From contig UCIA01000001.1 in the NCBI GenBank assembly GCA_900472295.1, positions 23,348 through 87,347 of the forward strand: a stretch of 64,000 nucleotides of DNA. The letters run 5' to 3'. The DNA is from Hyphomicrobiales bacterium. GTDB taxonomy: Bacteria; Pseudomonadota; Alphaproteobacteria; Rhizobiales; Rhizobiaceae. A program made the translations under genes and the position numbers. The notes beneath the pieces are model-generated. The model ran no database searches. It was not told where the DNA came from and saw only the letters and a program-made list of their open reading frames with translations. Below, piece by piece: positions 23,067 to 32,345 of the stretch (positions are counted from its first letter, which is position 1; every line of letters starts with the position of its first letter).

Positions 23067-23170
23067 GCGCTAAAACGGCGTGTTGGACCGGAAAGTCGCG
23101 CAGCATCCGGCCTTGTCGACGTAACTCCAAGGCGATAAGGCTCGCGCAACATCGATGAGAGGGATTGGAC

Positions 23171-24139
23171 GTGCCGAATTCCTGTTTTTTCCTAGCGGCC
23201 GACGCCAACTATTTCCCCTATGCATGCTTGGCCGCGCGCAGAATTCTGGATGTTTCGGGAGACGCAACGCCGGGCTTCATCTTGCATGTCGGCGCACGCG
23301 ATGCCGATATGCGTGTTGCTGAACGTCTGTTGAAGAACCGCGTTCGCATCATGGACGTTTCGGCGCTCTTTGCGGACGCCGGCCGCACTTTCCGGCCAAG
23401 CAATGTCGGCACCTTTGTTCGGCTTTTCGCCGACCAGCTGCCTCAGTTCGCGGGCTATGACCGCATCGCCCATGTCGATTGCGATGTTCTCTTCAATCGG
23501 GATATAGGCGACCTGGTGGGGCAGACACTTCATGCTCCGTTGCTGGCCGCACATGACGATTATATGTACTTCCGCCCAGGCTATCGGCAGAAGTGGTCGA
23601 TGCGGCCGGGGGCGCCTTACTTCAATGCCGGCATCATCGTCTTCAACATGCTGCCGGTGCGTGAACAGGGCCTTTTAAGTCGCGCCAGGGACGTGGCCGT
23701 CGCCGGGCAGATGAACGATCAGAATGCGCTGAACATCGTCTTCGAGGGCAAGTGGCAGACGATGCATCCGAACTGGAATTTGATGTCCAACGGCACCAAG
23801 CAGTATCGCTTTGCCCAGGCTTATGCCCGGCATTTTGCCGGCGGCAAGCCATGGGGAACTCAGGAAGGCGTGGAACTCGATGCGCTGGCGGTCTGGCGGG
23901 AACTGGCAAAGGATACGCCATGGGCAAGGCCTTTCCGCCAGCGCATCCCATTCGAACGAGGTGTTGTGAAGCGGCTGACCCGCAGGCTTGACCCCATTGC
24001 CGGTTCCCTTCTGAACAAGGGCATTGCCAGGAGCCGCGCGCGCTACGATGGCCGAAAGATGCATGAGATGTACGCCGCGCAAGCGATTGCCGGCGAGATG
24101 GCCATCAGTTTCCCAGAAGTACTCGGGGGCTTTGGCTGA
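23171..24139 (+). CDS. Family 8 glycosyltransferase
   Basis: 322 residues. GT8 hallmarks in order are LAADANYFPYACLAARRI, the metal-binding IAHVDCDVLFNRD (DxD), PYFNAGIIVFN, MNDQNALNIVF and HFAGGKPW. It transfers a sugar, usually galactose or glucose, from UDP-sugar to a lipopolysaccharide or exopolysaccharide acceptor. The GTG start follows GAGAGGG at seven bases; a TTG two codons upstream would overlap that site. Confidence 0.85.
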   Translation: MPNSCFFLAADANYFPYACLAARRILDVSGDATPGFILHVGARDADMRVAERLLKNRVRIMDVSALFADAGRTFRPSNVGTFVRLFADQLPQFAGYDRIAHVDCDVLFNRDIGDLVGQTLHAPLLAAHDDYMYFRPGYRQKWSMRPGAPYFNAGIIVFNMLPVREQGLLSRARDVAVAGQMNDQNALNIVFEGKWQTMHPNWNLMSNGTKQYRFAQAYARHFAGGKPWGTQEGVELDALAVWRELAKDTPWARPFRQRIPFERGVVKRLTRRLDPIAGSLLNKGIARSRARYDGRKMHEMYAAQAIAGEMAISFPEVLGGFG

Positions 24140-24190: not shown

Positions 24191-25111
24191 TCAAACTACA
24201 GTTATGCGACCCTGAATTCCGCCGAGATAGGTCGTCCAGATATGGTCCGAGAGCATGCGGCGGTATTCGATCTCTCCTGATGGCCCCTTGTAGGAAGCGC
24301 CACCGACATGGAGCATTGCGTTGTCCAATATCTGGTATGTCGCATCGACCTTGCCAAGATGAAGGGGGAGGCTGCTCTCCGTCGCAAATTCGAAATCCTC
24401 AGGCGGAAGTCGCGAATAGATCGGGTTCCAGTTACCACCGCCTGTGTCGAGGCCAATCTGCCCTCTCCCCCTGAAATCGAGCGACAGGTGTGAGACATCG
24501 CGATACTTGAAAAAGCAAAACCCTGCCCAAAGGAACCAGCCCTTGTCATCGATAGTCTTTTTGAACTTGTAGTTGGAGCCAGAGACGAGCCTTAATCCGT
24601 AGGCGGTCTTGCGCCCCAGGCGCTCCGCGTAGTCAAGCGGTGCGATGGGCAAGCAGTCATGATCGAGGAAGCCGAACGCCTTTGGCTTCAGGTGGCGCAC
24701 GATGTTGTAGTAAATCCAGTTCATCGAAATGCCATGCGACCGGCTCCCTTTGCGCTCCGGGTTGCCGGGCAAGCCGAAATAGGGAACGGCTCGAATTTTG
24801 CAGATTTTTTCGATGGACTGCCGTGCCGCCGGTGAGTTTGAATTATCGACGACGACAAGGGTCATGCCCTTGGAATATTGCTGCCAGCCCTTTGTGAGAG
24901 CGTCGATCACCCACGGAGTGTTGAATGAGACAACGAAGCAAAAGCTGCTATCGTCTGCTTTGCCTAGCCCCTCAGCAAAGCTACGACCTGTGTTGGCGCC
25001 TTTCTGCCGGAAATATCGGTATTTAAGCCAATCACGTGTCCTTATGGCGCTGTACACAATTTCATTGGCGCGAAACGCTCCGACAAATTGTTTTGACAAT
25101 GAAAGTCGCAA
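24191..25111 (-). CDS. Putative glycosyltransferase, unclassified
   Basis: 306 residues. The middle FGLPGNPERKGSRSHGISMNWI and AFGFLDHDCLPIAPLDY has the look of a GT-A transferase, where DHD could be the metal-binding acidic motif and LVVVDNSNS the nucleotide strand. I cannot name its family. Codon use is noticeably more AT-rich than in the neighbours, which suggests recent acquisition. The start is a TTG with no good ribosome site, so the N-terminus is uncertain. It lies downstream of the polymerase gene on the same strand, so it probably belongs to the exopolysaccharide unit. Confidence 0.6.
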   Translation of the reverse strand: MRLSLSKQFVGAFRANEIVYSAIRTRDWLKYRYFRQKGANTGRSFAEGLGKADDSSFCFVVSFNTPWVIDALTKGWQQYSKGMTLVVVDNSNSPAARQSIEKICKIRAVPYFGLPGNPERKGSRSHGISMNWIYYNIVRHLKPKAFGFLDHDCLPIAPLDYAERLGRKTAYGLRLVSGSNYKFKKTIDDKGWFLWAGFCFFKYRDVSHLSLDFRGRGQIGLDTGGGNWNPIYSRLPPEDFEFATESSLPLHLGKVDATYQILDNAMLHVGGASYKGPSGEIEYRRMLSDHIWTTYLGGIQGRITVV

Positions 25112-25150: not shown

Positions 25151-26458
25151 TTAGGCTATGGAGCGGTGATCGACAAGTTTGTTCTGAGCCGCTGAGAAAC
25201 AGCCGGCCTCCGCCCTCAACCCCCGCTGATGCCTGTATTCCAGCGCGATCGCGCCCCAGATCAGGCCGAGCAGCAGATAGAGGTGGCGCCAGTGGTCGAT
25301 GTCGATGAAGGTGCCGAGCCCGATATTGCCGATGAAGGCGACGTAGGCGCACAAGAGATAGGGCTGCCACGGCCGGTCGCGCAAAAGGATGCGGAAGCCG
25401 GCGGCTATCGTCCACAGCGTCAGCGACAGGAACGAGACGAAGCCGAGCCAGCCGTAGTCCATCAGCGTTTTCAGCCAGATGTCGTGCGTGTCTTCGCCGA
25501 AGATGGTGCCGAACACCAGAGGTCCGATGCCGAGCGGATGTTCGAGCGCCATCTCGAAGCCGATTGCGTAGCGGGCAAAACGGCCAAGCCGCGCCGTGTC
25601 GTAGCTCTGCTCCAACTGGGCGCGGCTGGAGAACATCTCGCTGACGCCGGGCAGCTGCAGGATGACGATCATGGCGATCACCAAAAGGGTGACAGCCGCA
25701 ATGGTCATGATGACGACGCGCAGCCGGAACCTGCCGCTGTTGCTCTGCAGGAAGAGCGCGCCGGTGAGCAGAATGGCCGAAACGGCGAACATGCCCCAGG
25801 CGCCGCGCGAGAACGAGAAGAAGATGCCGGCGGTGATGATCAGCAGCGGCACCGCCAGCAGCGGCATGCGGGCGATCGACCCGGTCAAAATGAGATAGAG
25901 CAGATAGATTCCGGGCAGCACCAGAAACGGCCCGAACACGTTCGGATCCTGGAAGGCGCCCTGGGCGCGGTCATATCGGGTGAAGATTTCGGCGCCGGGG
26001 AAAGCATGGAAATAGCCGGCAATGCCGAGCAGCGCCGTCGCCACCGCGGAAAAGACATAGGCGATGAAGATCAGCCGGTAGAGGCTGGGTTGCACAGCGG
26101 TTACCGATGCGAAGAACACCGCGGTGAAGGCGAGGAACAGTGAGACGGCGAGGTAGAGCGGTGTGCTGGCAAGGTTGGCCATCTGCGTCATCGAGATCAT
26201 GCCGCCGATGTTCATCGTGATCAGCAATACCAGCAGCGGCACCGCGGCGCGCGATATGCGCAGGCCAAACAGCCCCCACACCGCGATCAGCCCGACCATG
26301 AAAAGATCGTAAGGCGCCGGCTCGTCGATGACGAAGCCCGAGAGGAAGACGCCCAAAAAGACCGCGCCCGAGGATATCAGCGCGATCAGCTTGGCATTGA
26401 CCGCAGAAGGCGGCAACGTGACCGCGGCCGGCGACAGATCATGGGAAATGGCGCTCAA
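25151..26458 (-). CDS. O-antigen ligase/Wzy-type polysaccharide polymerase
   Basis: 435-residue integral-membrane protein with about ten or more hydrophobic segments. The Wzy_C-type periplasmic region is visible in FSFSRGAWGMFAVSAILL and EHPLGIGPLVFGTIFGEDTHDIWLKTLMDYGWLG, which carries the conserved His. It probably polymerises or ligates repeat units outside the inner membrane. Its start overlaps the stop of the upstream phosphoglycosyltransferase gene by four bases. No Wzx flippase is in the window. Confidence 0.8.
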   Translation of the reverse strand: MSAISHDLSPAAVTLPPSAVNAKLIALISSGAVFLGVFLSGFVIDEPAPYDLFMVGLIAVWGLFGLRISRAAVPLLVLLITMNIGGMISMTQMANLASTPLYLAVSLFLAFTAVFFASVTAVQPSLYRLIFIAYVFSAVATALLGIAGYFHAFPGAEIFTRYDRAQGAFQDPNVFGPFLVLPGIYLLYLILTGSIARMPLLAVPLLIITAGIFFSFSRGAWGMFAVSAILLTGALFLQSNSGRFRLRVVIMTIAAVTLLVIAMIVILQLPGVSEMFSSRAQLEQSYDTARLGRFARYAIGFEMALEHPLGIGPLVFGTIFGEDTHDIWLKTLMDYGWLGFVSFLSLTLWTIAAGFRILLRDRPWQPYLLCAYVAFIGNIGLGTFIDIDHWRHLYLLLGLIWGAIALEYRHQRGLRAEAGCFSAAQNKLVDHRSIA

Positions 26459-27990
26459 TAGGCGTTTTCCGTATTGAGCAGGCGCAGTGGCGTCAGCAAC
26501 AGGATTCTGAGATCGAACAGCAGCGACCAGTTCTCGATGTAATAGAGGTCGTACTCCGTGCGCATGCGGATCTTTTCATTGGTGTCCATCTCGCCGCGCC
26601 AGCCATTGATCTGCGCCCAGCCGGTAACGCCGGGCTTGACCTTGTGGCGGGCGAAATAGCCGTCGACCACCTCATTGTAGAGCAGGTTGTGCGACTGCGC
26701 GGCAATCGCGTGCGGGCGTGGACCGACCAGCGACAGCGAGCCGAACAAAGAGTTGAAGAACTGCGGCAGTTCGTCGATCGAGCTCTTGCGGATGAAGCGG
26801 CCGACGCGGGTGACACGCGGATCGTTCTTGGTCACCGTCTGCTTGGCGGTCGGGTCCGCGCGGTCGGTGTACATGGAGCGGAATTTGTAGACCTCGACGA
26901 TCTCGTTGTTGAAACCGTGCCGCTTCTGCTTGAACAGCACCGGACCCTTGCTGTCGAGCTTGATGGCGATGGCTGTCACCAGCATCACCGGCGAAAACAG
27001 GATGATGCCGATCAGCGAGAAGACGATGTCGAAGGCGCGCTTGGCGACGGAATCCCAGTCGTTGATCGGCCTGTCGAAGATGTCGAGCATCGGCACCGAG
27101 CCGATGTAGGAATAGGCGCGCGGGCGAAACTGCAGCGCGTTCGAATGCGCCGACAGCCGGATGTCGACCGGCAGTACCCATAGCTTCTTCAACAGCTGCA
27201 GCACGCGCGTTTCGGCGGTCAGCGGCAGCGACACGATCAGCATGTCGATGCGCGCGATGCGGGCGAATTCCATAAGCTCCGAAATGGTGCCGAGCTTGGG
27301 ATAGCCGGCCACGATCGGCGGCGACCGCTTGTCGCCGCGGTCGTCGAAGATGCCGCAGATGCGGATGTCGTTGTAGGGCTGCTTTTCGACTGAGCGGATC
27401 AGCATCTCGGCCGCCTTGCCGCCGCCGACGATGACGGCGCGGCGCTCCATCCGGCCGTCACGCGCCCAGCGCCGGATCAGTTTCGCCATCACCAGGCGCA
27501 GGCCAAACAGCAGAAGCAGGCCGACGACGAACCAGGTGCCGAACAGCAGGCGTGAATAATCCTCCGACATCTTCATGATGAAGGCCGTCAGCGCCATCAA
27601 GGCGAAGGTGCCGGCCCAGACCGTCAGCACGCGGCCGAGGTTGGAGATCGGCCTCATCAAGGCTGAGATCTGGTAGCAATCGCTGACGTCGAGCAACACC
27701 ACGGCCACGAACGAGGCGGCGCCGATGGTCAGCGGATATTGCCAGGCGAGGTAGTTGAAGAAACCGACAAAATGGACGTAGAGCGCGAGCCCCGACAGGA
27801 ACAGCAGCCCGAATTCGACCAGGCGCAGCACGCCGCTGACCATCACCGGCGACATCGTGTCGCGCCGGTATTGCGAGGCGACCTGACGGGCGACGCTGTT
27901 CATGCCGCCGGGCGCGGGAGGCTCGGCAGGACCGTCGAATTTGCGCACCGAATCGGCTGAGAAGCGGTGCGCGGGGTCGATCTCTTTCAT
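26455..27990 (-). CDS. Undecaprenyl-phosphate sugar phosphotransferase (WcaJ/PssY type)
   Basis: 511 residues. Four N-terminal membrane segments (about 52-155) are followed by a Rossmann-like region (VIVGGGKAAEMLIRS, near 183) and the C-terminal bacterial sugar transferase domain from about 315. That domain includes KRAFDIVFSLIGIILFSP, GPVLFKQKRHG, YKFRSM, SSIDELPQFFNSLFGSLSLVGPRP and KPGVTGWAQINGWRG. It starts repeat-unit synthesis by moving a hexose-1-phosphate to the lipid carrier. The frame is open 34 codons upstream; I chose MKEIDPAH. Confidence 0.9.
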   Translation of the reverse strand: MKEIDPAHRFSADSVRKFDGPAEPPAPGGMNSVARQVASQYRRDTMSPVMVSGVLRLVEFGLLFLSGLALYVHFVGFFNYLAWQYPLTIGAASFVAVVLLDVSDCYQISALMRPISNLGRVLTVWAGTFALMALTAFIMKMSEDYSRLLFGTWFVVGLLLLFGLRLVMAKLIRRWARDGRMERRAVIVGGGKAAEMLIRSVEKQPYNDIRICGIFDDRGDKRSPPIVAGYPKLGTISELMEFARIARIDMLIVSLPLTAETRVLQLLKKLWVLPVDIRLSAHSNALQFRPRAYSYIGSVPMLDIFDRPINDWDSVAKRAFDIVFSLIGIILFSPVMLVTAIAIKLDSKGPVLFKQKRHGFNNEIVEVYKFRSMYTDRADPTAKQTVTKNDPRVTRVGRFIRKSSIDELPQFFNSLFGSLSLVGPRPHAIAAQSHNLLYNEVVDGYFARHKVKPGVTGWAQINGWRGEMDTNEKIRMRTEYDLYYIENWSLLFDLRILLLTPLRLLNTENAY

Positions 27991-28146
27991 CGGGTTTCCC
28001 ACAAGCTTCCGCCAGGACCATAGCAGAAGAGAGCTAAAAAAACCTTGAGACAACTTGTGGGTTTTGGAAGGTCTCGGCGGCTTGCCGGTCACTCGCCTGC
28101 GGCTCGCTGCCTCAGTCCGTTTCTGCCTGAGGGTTAGGACTGCCTG

Positions 28147-29292
28147 TCATGGGCGTCGCTGGCCTTTGCTGAGCGCGGCGAAATAGGCTCTCTCGATGTC
28201 GGCCGCCATGACATCGACGCCGAAGCGCGCCTTGAGGCTGGCGGTATCGGGCATGGCGCCCCCGTAAGCCTCGAGATCGCCTAGCGCCTCGCCCATCTTG
28301 TCGCCGAGTTGGCGCGGATCGGGACGGATCAGGGCAGGGGATTCCTCGCCAAAAATTTCGGGGATGCCGCCGACGGCGGTGGCGATCATTGGCCTGCCGG
28401 CGGCCAGCGTCTCCAGCACGATGTAGGGCATGGCTTCGGCGCGCGACGGCACGACGACCAGATCGGCTAGCGCAAAGGCCTCCCTTGCCGGCATCGGCGG
28501 CAGGAACTGAACCTGTTTCTCGAGGCTCAGCCGCTTTACCTGCGCGTGGTAGCGCGGCAGGTCGTCACCGTCGCCGACCATGACCGCGGTCAGCTTTCGG
28601 CCAAGCTGCGTGCCGGCCAGCGCCAGCGCGTCGATGAAAATGTCCGGGCCTTTGAGGTCGCGCATCATGCCGATGTAGAGCAGGTCGGCTGGGTCGGACT
28701 GTGCGACCACGGGCTCGAACTCGGCAGCGCGCAGGCCGTTATAGACCAGCGTGTTCGGGATCGGCGGCTCGCCGACCTTCCTGCGATAGGTCCGCCGCTC
28801 ATAATCAGAGACGAACAGCAGGCAGTCGGTGAAGCGCGACATGAAGCGCTCCAGCGCGAAGAACAGCTTTCCGGTGTTCGTCGTTTCGTCATAGTGGAGG
28901 GAGCCACCATGCGGCGAATAAAGGCGGGCTACGCGAGACCTTGATACCCGCAACAATGAGCCGAACAGACGGGCATAGGCGCCACCTTTGGCGCCATGTC
29001 CGTGCAACACGTCCGGCCGCAATTCCTTGATGATTCGATAGGTGCGCCAGGCCGAGGCGAGGTCGCCCGGGCCGACATGGCGCTGCATCGGGGTGCGATG
29101 GATGCCGAGCGCCAGGCTGTCCTTCATCTGATCGAACAGGCGTTCCTCGTATTCGCCGCCCGTGGTGGAATCGCAGACGATGCCGACAACATGCCCGGCG
29201 GCAAGCTGTGCCTCCGTCAGATCGCGCACATGGCGAAAAATCCCGCCGACGGGTGAGCGAAAGCAATGGACGATCCTGAGCTGGTCCGCCAC
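28147..29292 (-). CDS. Family 4 glycosyltransferase
   Basis: 381 residues with a GT-B fold. N-terminal VGGIFRHVRDLTEAQLAAGHVV is the acceptor-side Rossmann motif. The donor side has LLYIGMMRDLKGPDIFIDAL and PSRAEAMPYIVLETLAAGRPMIATAVGGIPEIF, with the retaining E-x7-E pattern. The GTG start lies seven bases after the export-lipoprotein stop, so the two are co-transcribed. The role is elongation of the exopolysaccharide repeat unit. Confidence 0.88.
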   Translation of the reverse strand: MADQLRIVHCFRSPVGGIFRHVRDLTEAQLAAGHVVGIVCDSTTGGEYEERLFDQMKDSLALGIHRTPMQRHVGPGDLASAWRTYRIIKELRPDVLHGHGAKGGAYARLFGSLLRVSRSRVARLYSPHGGSLHYDETTNTGKLFFALERFMSRFTDCLLFVSDYERRTYRRKVGEPPIPNTLVYNGLRAAEFEPVVAQSDPADLLYIGMMRDLKGPDIFIDALALAGTQLGRKLTAVMVGDGDDLPRYHAQVKRLSLEKQVQFLPPMPAREAFALADLVVVPSRAEAMPYIVLETLAAGRPMIATAVGGIPEIFGEESPALIRPDPRQLGDKMGEALGDLEAYGGAMPDTASLKARFGVDVMAADIERAYFAALSKGQRRP

Positions 29293-29299
29293 GTTGATG

Positions 29300-29863
29300 T
29301 CAGAACAGGCGTTCGCGAACGTAGACGGTGTCGCCCGGCAGCAGCGGGTCGGAGGTGACCACCCGGCCGGTCATCACCTTGCCGTTGATGTCGCGGGTGA
29401 TGTCGACGCTTTCCTGGTTGGCGCGCGGCGAGAAGCCGCCGGCAATGGCGATCGCCTTCTGCACGGTGAGGCCCGGCACGTAGGAATACTGGCCGGCGGC
29501 GCCCACTTCGCCCATGACGAAGATCGGCCGGTAGCGGTCGATCTCGACCGACACGTCGGGGTCGCGCAGATAGCCCTGGCGCAATTTGTCGGCGAGCTCT
29601 TTTTCCAGCTGCTGTGCGGTGTGGCCGCGCGCCGGTACGGCGCCGACCAGCGGGAAGGACATGTAGCCGGACTGGTCGACGCTGTAGGTGTTGGTCAGCC
29701 CCTCCTGCTCGAACACGGTGACGCGGACACGGTCGCCGGCGCCGAGCCGGTAGGGCTGGTCGAGCACTTCGTGGAAGGCCGCCGGCGTCGGCCGGTAGCT
29801 GGAACAGCCGGCGAGCATCGAAACGGCCAGCAGAGCGCGAAACAGACCAGCAGCGCTTTTCAT
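29300..29863 (-). CDS. Polysaccharide export lipoprotein (Wza/ExoF type)
   Basis: 187 residues. The signal peptide ends in the lipobox LAGCSS. The poly-export domain follows (YRLGAGDRVRVTVFEQEGLTNTYSVDQSGYMSFPLVG), then an SLBB-like part (FVMGEVGAAGQYSYVPGLTVQKAIAIAGGFSPRAN). It is shorter than E. coli Wza (about 379) and lacks its C-terminal outer-membrane helix region, as is common in alphaproteobacteria. It is first in the minus-strand transcript, facing the co-polymerase gene. Confidence 0.88.
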   Translation of the reverse strand: MKSAAGLFRALLAVSMLAGCSSYRPTPAAFHEVLDQPYRLGAGDRVRVTVFEQEGLTNTYSVDQSGYMSFPLVGAVPARGHTAQQLEKELADKLRQGYLRDPDVSVEIDRYRPIFVMGEVGAAGQYSYVPGLTVQKAIAIAGGFSPRANQESVDITRDINGKVMTGRVVTSDPLLPGDTVYVRERLF

Positions 29864-30042
29864 GATCGGACACACACCTTCGTCGCTGTGGCCGCCATGA
29901 CGCGGCGGCAAACCTTAAGGATCTGGGTTCGTTATCATCCTGTTAGGGTTAATGGCCGGTAAAGGGACGCGGCCTGTTTGGCGGCAATCGACAAAAAGCC
30001 GTATAGTTTTGCTGGCTTTGTTTACCGGATGTCAGCAAACCC

Positions 30043-30128: not shown

Positions 30129-32345
30129 ATGTCCGATCAATCCGCGGCCGCAGATGTCGATGTCGACCTGAGACAGCTCTTCGCCAGCCTGGCGCGGAAC
30201 TGGCTGCGCATCCTTGTGATCACGCTCATCGTCACCGGTCTCGCTTTTGCCTTCGCCTGGCTCGCCACGCCGCACTACAGGGCGACGACCATGCTCAAGA
30301 TCCAGCCGAGCGAGTCGGCCTATACGCGCCCCGCCGGCACCAACGACGACGACAAGCCCGTGCTCGATGCGGAAGGCGTGGCCACGGAAGTCCAGGTCAT
30401 TTCCTCGTCCGACATCCTCAAGCAGGTGGCTGACCAGCTCAATCTGGCGAAGCTGCCCGAATTTGACGATACGCTCGGCATGTCGCCGGTGAGCCGGCTT
30501 CTGGTCATTGCCGGTCTGAAAAGTGATCCGCAAGAGATTCCGCTCGATGAGCGCGTGCTGCAGAAGATGCGCGACAAGCTCAATGTGTATGGCGTCGAAA
30601 AGACGCGCGCCATCGCCGTCGAATTCTCCTCGGAAGATCCCAAGCTCGCCGCCGATGTCCCCAATGCCATCGCCGCCGCCTATATCGCCTATCAGGCACA
30701 GGCCAAGACCAAATCGAACTCCGCCGCCACCGCCTTCCTTGGTCCGGAAATCGATGAGCTGCAGAAGCAGGTGAGGGATGCCGAGGCCAAGGTGGCCTCA
30801 TATCGCGCCCAGTCGGATCTGTTGATGGGCGGCAACAATTCGGTGCTGGCGACGCAGCAATTGTCGGAACTGTCGACCGAGCTGTCGCGCGTGCGCGCCA
30901 ATCGCGCCTCGGCCGAAGCGACGGCCGACCGGGTGCGCCAGGCTTTGCAGAACGGCAGCTCGCTCGACGCGGTGCCTGAGGTGCTGTCTTCCGAACTGAT
31001 CCAGCGGCTGCGTGAGCGTCAGATCGAGCTGCGGACCAACATTGCCGATCTCTCCACCACCTTGCTCGACAACCATCCGCGCATCCGGGCGCTGAGGTCG
31101 CAGCTCGCCGATCTCGACGGCCAGATCCGCAACGAGGCGCAAAAGGTGATGCGCGGCTTGCTGACCCAGGCGCAGACCGCCAAAGCCCGCGAAAACCAGC
31201 TTGTGTCGGACGTCAACACGCTGAAAGCGGCATCGGCGCGCGCCGGCGAGGAGCAGGTCGAACTCGATGCCCTGCAGCGCGAAGCGAACGCGCGGCGCCA
31301 GCAGCTCGAATCCTATATGGCGAGCTTCCGCGAAGTGTCCTCGCGCAAGAACTATCTGCCGGTCGATGCCAGCGTGTTTTCCGAGGCGCGCGTGCCGTCG
31401 GAACCCTATTTCCCCAAGCTCGTGCCGATCGTCAGCGCCGCCTTCGTCGGTTCGCTGCTGCTGATGTCGGTCATCACGCTGCTGCAGGAGCTGTTTTCCG
31501 GCCGCGCCATGCGGCCGGCCCCAGGCGCCCGCTTCGAGCGCATCGAGCAGGTTGCGATGCCGGCCATGACGGCGCCGGTCGTTGAGCCCCAACCGGCGCC
31601 TGCTGAGGTCGTGCAAGTGGACGATCAGCGGACGGCCATGGAGTCTGAGCTGGCGCCCGAACCGGAGCCTACTCCCGCAGTGCTGGAAGAAGCAGCTTCT
31701 GCCGATCCCGAACCGCAATCCGAGCCTGAACCTGTCCGCTCCAGCCTGGGCGAGATCGATGTCGAGAAGGCGGCTGAAAAGCTGATCGCCAGCGGTGCTG
31801 CGCGCGCCATCTTCGTGTCGCCGGAAGGCGACGAGGCAGCTGCATCGGCAGTGCTGGTGGCGCGCGAGGTCTCAGATGCCGGCCTGCGCGTCCTGCTGCT
31901 CGATCTCACCGCGTCTGGAGCGGCTTCGCGGCCGATGCTGGACAGCGGGCTTTTCCCCGGCATTACCAACCTGCTCGCCTCGGAAGCGCAGTTCAGCGAC
32001 GTCATCCACGCCGATCTCTATTCCGACTGTCATGTCGTACCCGTCGGCACCGCCGATCCGGTGCGCGCCATGCGCGCCGCCGACCGGCTGCCGATCATCA
32101 TGCAGTCGCTGACCACGGCCTACGATCTGGTCATCGTCGAATGCGGGCCTGCCGACGCGCAAGGCATCAGCCGCCTGGTCGGCGACAGCACCGAGGTCTT
32201 CCTCTCCATGCTGCAGGCCGACGACGAGGTGGCGCAGGCCGCCGTCAAGCTGATCGAAAGCGGCTATCCCGATCTCACTTTGGTGACGCCGATCGGCCAT
32301 GAGACGCCGGGTAACCCGGTGCCGGGACGACGTAGCGCCGCCTGA
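30129..32345 (+). CDS. Wzz/ExoP-type polysaccharide co-polymerase with degenerate kinase domain
   Basis: 738 residues. The Wzz domain has a first membrane segment near 27-46, a long periplasmic coiled-coil, the Pro-rich motif PSEPYFPKLVP near 422 and a second segment near 431-453. A Pro/Glu-rich linker (about 465-540) leads to a C-terminal domain shaped like a bacterial tyrosine kinase. Its Walker A position reads SPEGDEAAASA (about 562-572) with no GKS/T lysine. Walker A' keeps one Asp (LLLDLTASG), Walker B is LVIVECGPA, and the usual C-terminal Tyr cluster is missing. It should control chain length and export, but phosphorylation activity looks lost. Confidence 0.85.
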   Translation: MSDQSAAADVDVDLRQLFASLARNWLRILVITLIVTGLAFAFAWLATPHYRATTMLKIQPSESAYTRPAGTNDDDKPVLDAEGVATEVQVISSSDILKQVADQLNLAKLPEFDDTLGMSPVSRLLVIAGLKSDPQEIPLDERVLQKMRDKLNVYGVEKTRAIAVEFSSEDPKLAADVPNAIAAAYIAYQAQAKTKSNSAATAFLGPEIDELQKQVRDAEAKVASYRAQSDLLMGGNNSVLATQQLSELSTELSRVRANRASAEATADRVRQALQNGSSLDAVPEVLSSELIQRLRERQIELRTNIADLSTTLLDNHPRIRALRSQLADLDGQIRNEAQKVMRGLLTQAQTAKARENQLVSDVNTLKAASARAGEEQVELDALQREANARRQQLESYMASFREVSSRKNYLPVDASVFSEARVPSEPYFPKLVPIVSAAFVGSLLLMSVITLLQELFSGRAMRPAPGARFERIEQVAMPAMTAPVVEPQPAPAEVVQVDDQRTAMESELAPEPEPTPAVLEEAASADPEPQSEPEPVRSSLGEIDVEKAAEKLIASGAARAIFVSPEGDEAAASAVLVAREVSDAGLRVLLLDLTASGAASRPMLDSGLFPGITNLLASEAQFSDVIHADLYSDCHVVPVGTADPVRAMRAADRLPIIMQSLTTAYDLVIVECGPADAQGISRLVGDSTEVFLSMLQADDEVAQAAVKLIESGYPDLTLVTPIGHETPGNPVPGRRSAA

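Follow-up and report, generated by a model that had tools for sequence, protein, structure and literature searches.

The window, i.e. the whole stretch of 64,000 nucleotides of Hyphomicrobiales DNA that was analysed, encodes a polysaccharide co-polymerase in which a Wzz part is fused to a kinase-like domain that has lost its catalytic motifs. We consider it likely that this protein is a Wzx/Wzy-type co-polymerase whose pseudokinase predates the diversification of the order Hyphomicrobiales and works as a phosphorylation-independent scaffold. The gene product would serve as the co-polymerase of a surface polysaccharide pathway, and its kinase domain would have become a pseudokinase before the order diversified. 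The dead domain would still pack beneath the inner membrane as a scaffold, which may hold or gate both the oligomeric co-polymerase and the contacts that it makes with the export protein and Wzy, and no autophosphorylation cycles would be required. With its fold preserved but neither an acceptor tail nor an active site left, the domain most likely acts by contacts alone. Polymer length would then be set via the scaffold without a phosphorylation cycle, as the initial annotation had proposed.

The coordinates of the gene, its domains and motifs, and its neighbours are presented in Table 1. The host genome of the window copy measures 6.45 Mb, and among named copies, Mesorhizobium neociceri (89% identity) and M. 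caraganae (88%) have the closest. The model TIGR01005 (exopolysaccharide transport family) covers residues 9-738 with 787.2 bits, against a curated cut-off of 411.7, and the ATPase domain AAA_31 stays below its cut-off (15.5 vs. 27 bits). A complete Wzz part had been claimed from the sequence, and Pfam recovers a Wzz match at residues 11-104. The full-length structure model (pLDDT 71.7) has two helices that fit membrane spans, a long helical middle, a linker at about residues 465-540 and a C-terminal alternation of strands and helices. The periplasmic architecture is hence of the Wzc type, with the Wzz domain taken from Pfam and the helices only from the model (pTM 0.35). Superposition of the full-length model on the Wzc chain 7nhr_C aligned 407 residues (Z 15.1) at an rmsd of 37.8, so the whole-protein fit to Wzc is only loose. 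Two relatives of family f31 (L214 and L215) have orthologue frames of 1082 and 1112 aa, in which the linker ahead of the kinase-like domain is greatly extended.

Table 1. Features of the co-polymerase gene and of its neighbours (positions in the window; residues refer to the 738-aa protein)
Feature	Position	Strand	Basis
Wzy-type polymerase / O-antigen ligase family protein	25151..26458	-	PF04932; 66/75 loci
Polyprenyl-phosphate sugar-phosphate transferase	26455..28092	-	PF02397 + PF13727; 68/75 loci
GT4 glycosyltransferase	28147..29292	-	Present in 68/75 loci
Short polysaccharide export protein (Poly_export + SLBB), 203 aa, Wza-like	29300..29911	-	Pfam; head-to-head neighbour in 74/75 loci
Fused polysaccharide co-polymerase / BY pseudokinase, 738 aa	30129..32345	+	Single open frame; TIGR01005
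Wzz domain, residues 11-104	30159..30440	+	PF02706, 3.3e-13
Probable first transmembrane helix, residues 25-46	30201..30266	+	Helix predicted in full-length model; hydrophobic sequence
Probable second transmembrane helix, residues 431-456	31419..31496	+	Helix predicted in full-length model; hydrophobic sequence
Disordered Pro/Glu-rich linker, residues 465-540	31521..31748	+	pLDDT <50; dN/dS ~0.4 at 471-541
Kinase-like domain, residues 542-725	31752..32303	+	BY-kinase fold; dN/dS ~0.08
Degenerate Walker A, SPEGDEAAAS, residues 564-573	31818..31847	+	Direct sequence reading; alignments
Degenerate Walker A', LLLDLTASG at 589-597, only the first Asp (D592) kept; feature 588-597	31890..31919	+	Sequence; alignments
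Degenerate Walker B, LVIVECGP, residues 667-674, Asp replaced	32127..32150	+	Sequence; alignments
C-terminal tail without tyrosines, residues 715-738	32271..32342	+	Sequence; relatives

The initial annotation had described the kinase-like domain as catalytically dead, naming a lost Walker A lysine, an altered Walker B and a missing C-terminal tyrosine cluster. All three are borne out by direct reading: SPEGDEAAAS occupies the P-loop site, VIVECGP stands at residues 668-674, and the last tyrosine is Y713, with none in the tail beyond it. Among 80 Mesorhizobium-group copies, the last 40 residues hold one tyrosine in 75 copies, two in three copies and none in two copies. In BY-kinases, an ExxRxxR motif precedes the first strand; this motif is absent from the window protein, where the segment reads EIDVEKAAEKLIASGAARAIFVS. 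Thus, none of the catalytic and phospho-acceptor hallmarks of a Wzc-type PCP-2a (GK[S/T], DxD, the Walker B Asp and a tyrosine-rich tail) is found in the window protein. It combines a BY-kinase fold lacking catalytic motifs and tyrosine tail with a fused Wzz part, as expected of a PCP-2/BY-pseudokinase fusion. It is not a stand-alone pseudokinase, as the kinase-like domain is encoded in a single frame with the Wzz part.

The fold of the kinase-like domain was investigated with sequence searches and a structure model. By sequence, the best match in the PDB was the BY-kinase BceF, both with the single protein (E 1.4e-5) and with a profile (E 3.5e-7). The domain model, based on 46 sequences, reached a pLDDT of 62 and a pTM of 0.66, and its details are therefore unsure. 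A Foldseek search with this model returned BceF at E 3.9e-7, and ranks 1 to 37 were all BY-kinases or Wzc chains. VIA-align placed VpsO (Z 13.7, rmsd 3.2, 165 residues aligned), BceF (Z 13.6, rmsd 2.8, 167 residues), Wzc (Z 13.4, rmsd 5.7, 175 residues), CapAB (Z 13.1, rmsd 3.0, 168 residues) and Etk (Z 12.5, rmsd 4.9, 177 residues) at the top, followed by ArsA (11.2) and Get3-like folds (about 11), which are on par with some Wzc chains. A fold unrelated to BY-kinases, which would have spoken against the early reading of this domain, was rejected, since BY-kinases lead both comparisons of the predicted structure.

The gene lies in a conserved locus. It stands head-to-head with the Wza-like export gene in 74 of the 75 loci fetched from the order, which represent 20 families, and the export protein, the GT4 glycosyltransferase, the sugar-phosphate transferase and Wzy are all present in 62 of these 75 loci. 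All five genes occur in 74 of the 80 named loci, some loci being cut by contig ends. The export protein has only 203 aa, and may therefore need a separate outer-membrane barrel. Beside the Wzy gene, the window also contains a frame of 306 aa without a Pfam match (24191-25111), and a GT8 glycosyltransferase gene lies nearby (23165-24139).

The neighbours resemble parts of polar-adhesin pathways. In the available parts of the literature on the unipolar polysaccharide core cluster uppABCDEF, uppC is of the Wza type and uppE is the initiating transferase; one paper calls the cluster incomplete, and no co-polymerase gene is named for it there. Two of the neighbours described here are of the same types as uppC and uppE, as judged by Pfam class alone. 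The locus was also found in Sinorhizobium meliloti Ak57, where the copy is 42% identical, the genes are arranged alike, and SPGGDEGSTA stands in place of the P-loop. This copy is close to argC, rpsI and rplM. We take argC to be SMc01801, in which case the Ak57 copy presumably corresponds, by gene count, to SMc01795. Among the papers listed for S. meliloti adhesins, none held SMc01790, and searches for SMc01795, the adjoining tags and Mlr8439 returned a list entry, an interactome module and the EcpK paper. One S. meliloti record labelled as plasmid pSymB (L272; CP090106.1) looks like a mislabelled chromosome, because it measures 3.72 Mb and bears rpsI, rplM and argC.

We compared the P-loop site across relatives to see how widely the loss is shared. 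Matches to the protein were found in 112 of 121 and in 272 of 297 genomes, and part of these loci were fetched; the fetched loci lean towards the orthologue, because they were mostly high-scoring matches. GK[S/T] was absent from the P-loop site of all 132 aligned sequences of the order Hyphomicrobiales, a set that includes the window copy and one fragment (L030) and omits two paralogues from the window's own genome (L228, L229) and one copy at a contig end (L041). Likewise, the motif was missing from all 29 complete domains, including the window copy, among the first 30 loci of the family, in which L041 was the one cut short. A regular expression for the P-loop gave three matches in 133 sequences of the order (L120, L208, L215), all outside the P-loop columns; it also failed to pick up L228, whose intact P-loop was recognised by visual inspection.

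Whole-protein searches found PEGDEAAAS in 8 of 8 Mesorhizobium genomes, the window's own among them. All 80 named Mesorhizobium-group copies, which are the top 80 out of 489 matches, carry PEGD[E/D]AAA; two of them have D in place of E, and the final letter of the PEGDEAAAS stretch is T in 11 of the 80. The 80 out of 80 is partly built in, because one of the two stretches used for the search contains SPEGD. A check for this bias, using the eight genomes of the whole-protein search and dN/dS values without both search stretches, left the results standing. Hence, the Walker A loss that had been noticed in one sequence is shared by its relatives; no close homologue with an intact Walker A was found in the alignments, and a strain-specific mutation is thereby refuted.

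Outside the order, an intact P-loop is found in 22 of the 28 best matches fetched, and it is these 22 that have four or more tyrosines among their last 40 residues. The other six comprise two with a lysine in EAKS (L234, L235), three without a P-loop (L236, L237, L258) and one that is too short (L254). Remnants of the motif persist in a few sequences, namely GQGRTT in L188, NKST in L208 and EAKS in L234 and L235, the latter two from family f61. L188 (genome G156) is the least degenerate relative within the order, with GQGRTT, an Asp in both Walker A' and Walker B, and no tyrosine tail; it is a possible intermediate in which the lysine was replaced by arginine. In L208 (G001), a relative in the same family, the P-loop site reads EENKST, which retains the lysine and the Ser/Thr and has the glycine changed.

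The age of the loss was assessed with a tree built by a quick method from only the Wzz part (82 rows). All 53 orthologues of the order fall on one side of a branch with an SH-aLRT support of 98, and two families that lie outside the order, f61 and f172, join them with a support of 99. GK[S/T] is absent from all 57 of these sequences. The loci of f61 and f172 also have the head-to-head export gene, the GT4 glycosyltransferase and Wzy, and f61 has the transferase in addition. Conversely, export and Wzy matches are both lacking at the locus of L266, where the kinase is intact. These results imply that the motif loss follows the locus and is old, as f61 and f172 share both the locus and the loss while L266 shares neither. 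Because L188, L208 and L234/L235 retain remnants, the lysine probably disappeared on more than one occasion, and from the sequences the motif seems to have been eroded in several ways. Nucleotide binding might thus persist in some members. We also considered one clean loss event for the lysine, at the root of the clade; in view of GQGRTT, NKST and EAKS it is not supported as such.

Selection on the gene was estimated by the Nei-Gojobori method for 81 Mesorhizobium-group sequences. Over 1902 pairs, the kinase-like domain has a median dN/dS of 0.08, compared with 0.18 in the Wzz part and 0.42 in the linker, and the values changed little when both locus-finding stretches were removed (0.088 for the kinase-like domain and 0.183 for the Wzz part; 2163 pairs). 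In comparison with M. neociceri (L043), the kinase-like domain has a dN of 0.005 and the Wzz part one of 0.057. Of the three regions, the dead domain is under the tightest constraint as long as the comparison stays within the Mesorhizobium group. The pattern reverses when families are compared: the window copy and 53 sequences of other families have a median identity of 39% in the Wzz part and 24% in the domain. The initial annotation had suggested that the domain is under selection and not decaying, and the predicted BY-kinase fold together with the strong purifying selection agrees with this; purifying selection of this strength means that the domain does not decay.

In the window's family (79 rows), the mean entropy of the three motif sites is below that of the domain (1.21 vs. 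1.72 bits), and only a fraction of 0.0008 of random position samples was as low. In contrast, the motif sites in the other families (53 rows) are more variable than the domain (2.93 vs. 2.53 bits), and 0.9964 of the samples were as low. In the 46-sequence Mesorhizobium-group alignment, SPEGD, AAA and the residues E134, C135 and G136 (the ECG of VECG) are invariant, although the loci of this alignment were found partly via the SPEGD stretch. A conserved pocket is not obviously needed by a scaffold, so this pattern may speak against a pure scaffold in the window's own family. It would fit a repurposed pocket, in which the former ATP site has taken on some other ligand or a partner, e.g. a different nucleotide, and so gates the co-polymerase; we see a small chance of this. 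There is a similarly small chance that ATP chemistry was lost in the ancestor of the locus, and that the pocket drifted in most families but was captured for a new non-catalytic use in the family of Mesorhizobium, where it was conserved again as SPxGD, DxT and VECG. However, the single motif windows are unexceptional in the window's family (fractions of 0.08, 0.19 and 0.13), and random sampling ignores the clustering of conserved sites; we therefore treat the pocket pattern as a lead and not as a result. Moreover, none of the matches suggests a ligand.

As a rival reading, the dead domain might function together with an active BY-kinase encoded at another locus, the two forming a mixed oligomer. 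Potential partners do exist. The own genome of the window encodes a fused BY-kinase on contig C57 (L228), with SLLPGEGKST and four tyrosines in its last 40 residues, a pair of co-polymerase and kinase on C19, a co-polymerase without kinase domain on C62, and four matches to low-molecular-weight phosphatases, one of them short. The kinase match on C19 (L006; G000:C19:7281-7874) holds a TGA, and this gene may therefore be broken or split. Across 297 genomes of the order, with part of the candidates scored, 151 genomes had a BY-kinase match with an E-value of 1e-20 or lower, and 96 had one over the cut-off. Yet the tail of the window protein offers no tyrosines for phosphorylation, and the C57 protein is only about 21% identical to it over residues 2-423. 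Furthermore, the pseudokinase is kept in seven near-complete genomes (G132, G133, G135, G139, G142, G148, G153) in which none of the candidates, all of them scored, was a BY-kinase over the cut-off. The best match in these genomes, at 59.5 bits vs. a cut-off of 108.05, is the pseudokinase itself, and the weaker matches outside it reach up to 54.9 bits in frames of about 270-310 aa. The seven are examples, i.e. there are at least seven such genomes. They imply that a typical active partner is no condition for keeping the domain, and we regard a mixed oligomer as improbable. The search for a separate kinase that had been proposed at the outset found a fused kinase on C57 and a kinase match on C19 of the own genome, and no BY-kinase match over the cut-off in the seven genomes of the order.

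Recent decay, a strain-specific mutation or a sequencing error, the default readings of a lost motif, found nothing in their favour and are ruled out for practical purposes by the identical replacement in all eight Mesorhizobium genomes, the order-wide lack of GK[S/T] and the low dN/dS of the domain.

The order of the window also includes Brucella. Fused PCP-2/BY pseudokinases have been listed before: S. meliloti SMc01795, Brucella ceti BCETI_6000729, Mesorhizobium japonicum Mlr8439 and Vibrio vulnificus VV1_2305 (the 2009 review of Cuthbertson et al., according to the accessible text of the 2025 EcpK paper, PMC12004946). The first three come from the same order as the window and, by that account, carry a Wzz part and a kinase-dead domain in one polypeptide, as the window protein does. 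The likeness to SMc01795 was drawn through the Ak57 copy, whose presumed tag was derived from gene order and tag numbering, and Mlr8439 is known here by its description alone. In Rhizobium leguminosarum TA1, the co-polymerase PssP2 was reported in 2014 to be without Walker A, A' and B and without a tyrosine cluster; in the parts of the report available, its authors consider it apparently not phosphorylated, and its mutant alters the size profile of the EPS (PMC4182512). By this description, PssP2 and the window protein are both rhizobial co-polymerases whose kinase-like domain lacks the motifs. However, PssP2 has 586 aa, with a periplasmic part described as much shorter than that of PssP, and it probably represents another locus, because pssY precedes it whereas the gene studied here is arranged head-to-head with its neighbour. 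With the list that names SMc01795 and Mlr8439 and with PssP2 in print, the fused pseudokinase is, as far as these partly available sources go, a known kind with a named example in the same genus. The case is solid, and the kind is not new. In our literature searches, which were aimed elsewhere and covered few subscription papers, we found no description of how the genes are arranged across the order, of the contrast in selection or of the pattern in the pocket.

Other systems share part of these properties. Wzc of Escherichia coli, BceF and VpsO have their architecture and fold in common with the window protein, and so does ExoP of S. meliloti, by description alone; in contrast, all four are active BY-kinases, whereas the window protein lacks the catalytic motifs and the tyrosine tail. 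In EcpK/EpsV of Myxococcus xanthus and HfsB/HfsA of Caulobacter, the co-polymerase has a BY-kinase-like partner without catalytic motifs or tyrosine tail (PMC12004946, as far as accessible), but there the pseudokinase is a separate protein, whereas it is fused in the window protein. The same accessible text states that a PCP-2 co-polymerase couples polymerisation by Wzy to the export protein via changes in oligomeric state, and that the oligomeric state of Wzc is governed by tyrosine phosphorylation (PMC12004946). Models of Wzc-type export rest on such cycles of tyrosine phosphorylation. A dead kinase that is retained throughout an order in a conserved polysaccharide locus, and that is more constrained than the Wzz part in Mesorhizobium, offers a good natural experiment on this point: either the cycle is necessary, or the shape of the domain suffices. 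A label such as 'polysaccharide biosynthesis tyrosine autokinase' would mislead on such proteins.

Two further matches to the co-polymerase were found in frames of about 510 aa, one lacking query residues 192-404 (G108:C7:101481-103007) and the other query residues 204-531 (G035:C13:9163-10623). Both proteins look as if the periplasmic part had been trimmed, the region in which PssP2 is likewise described as short in the available text of its report.
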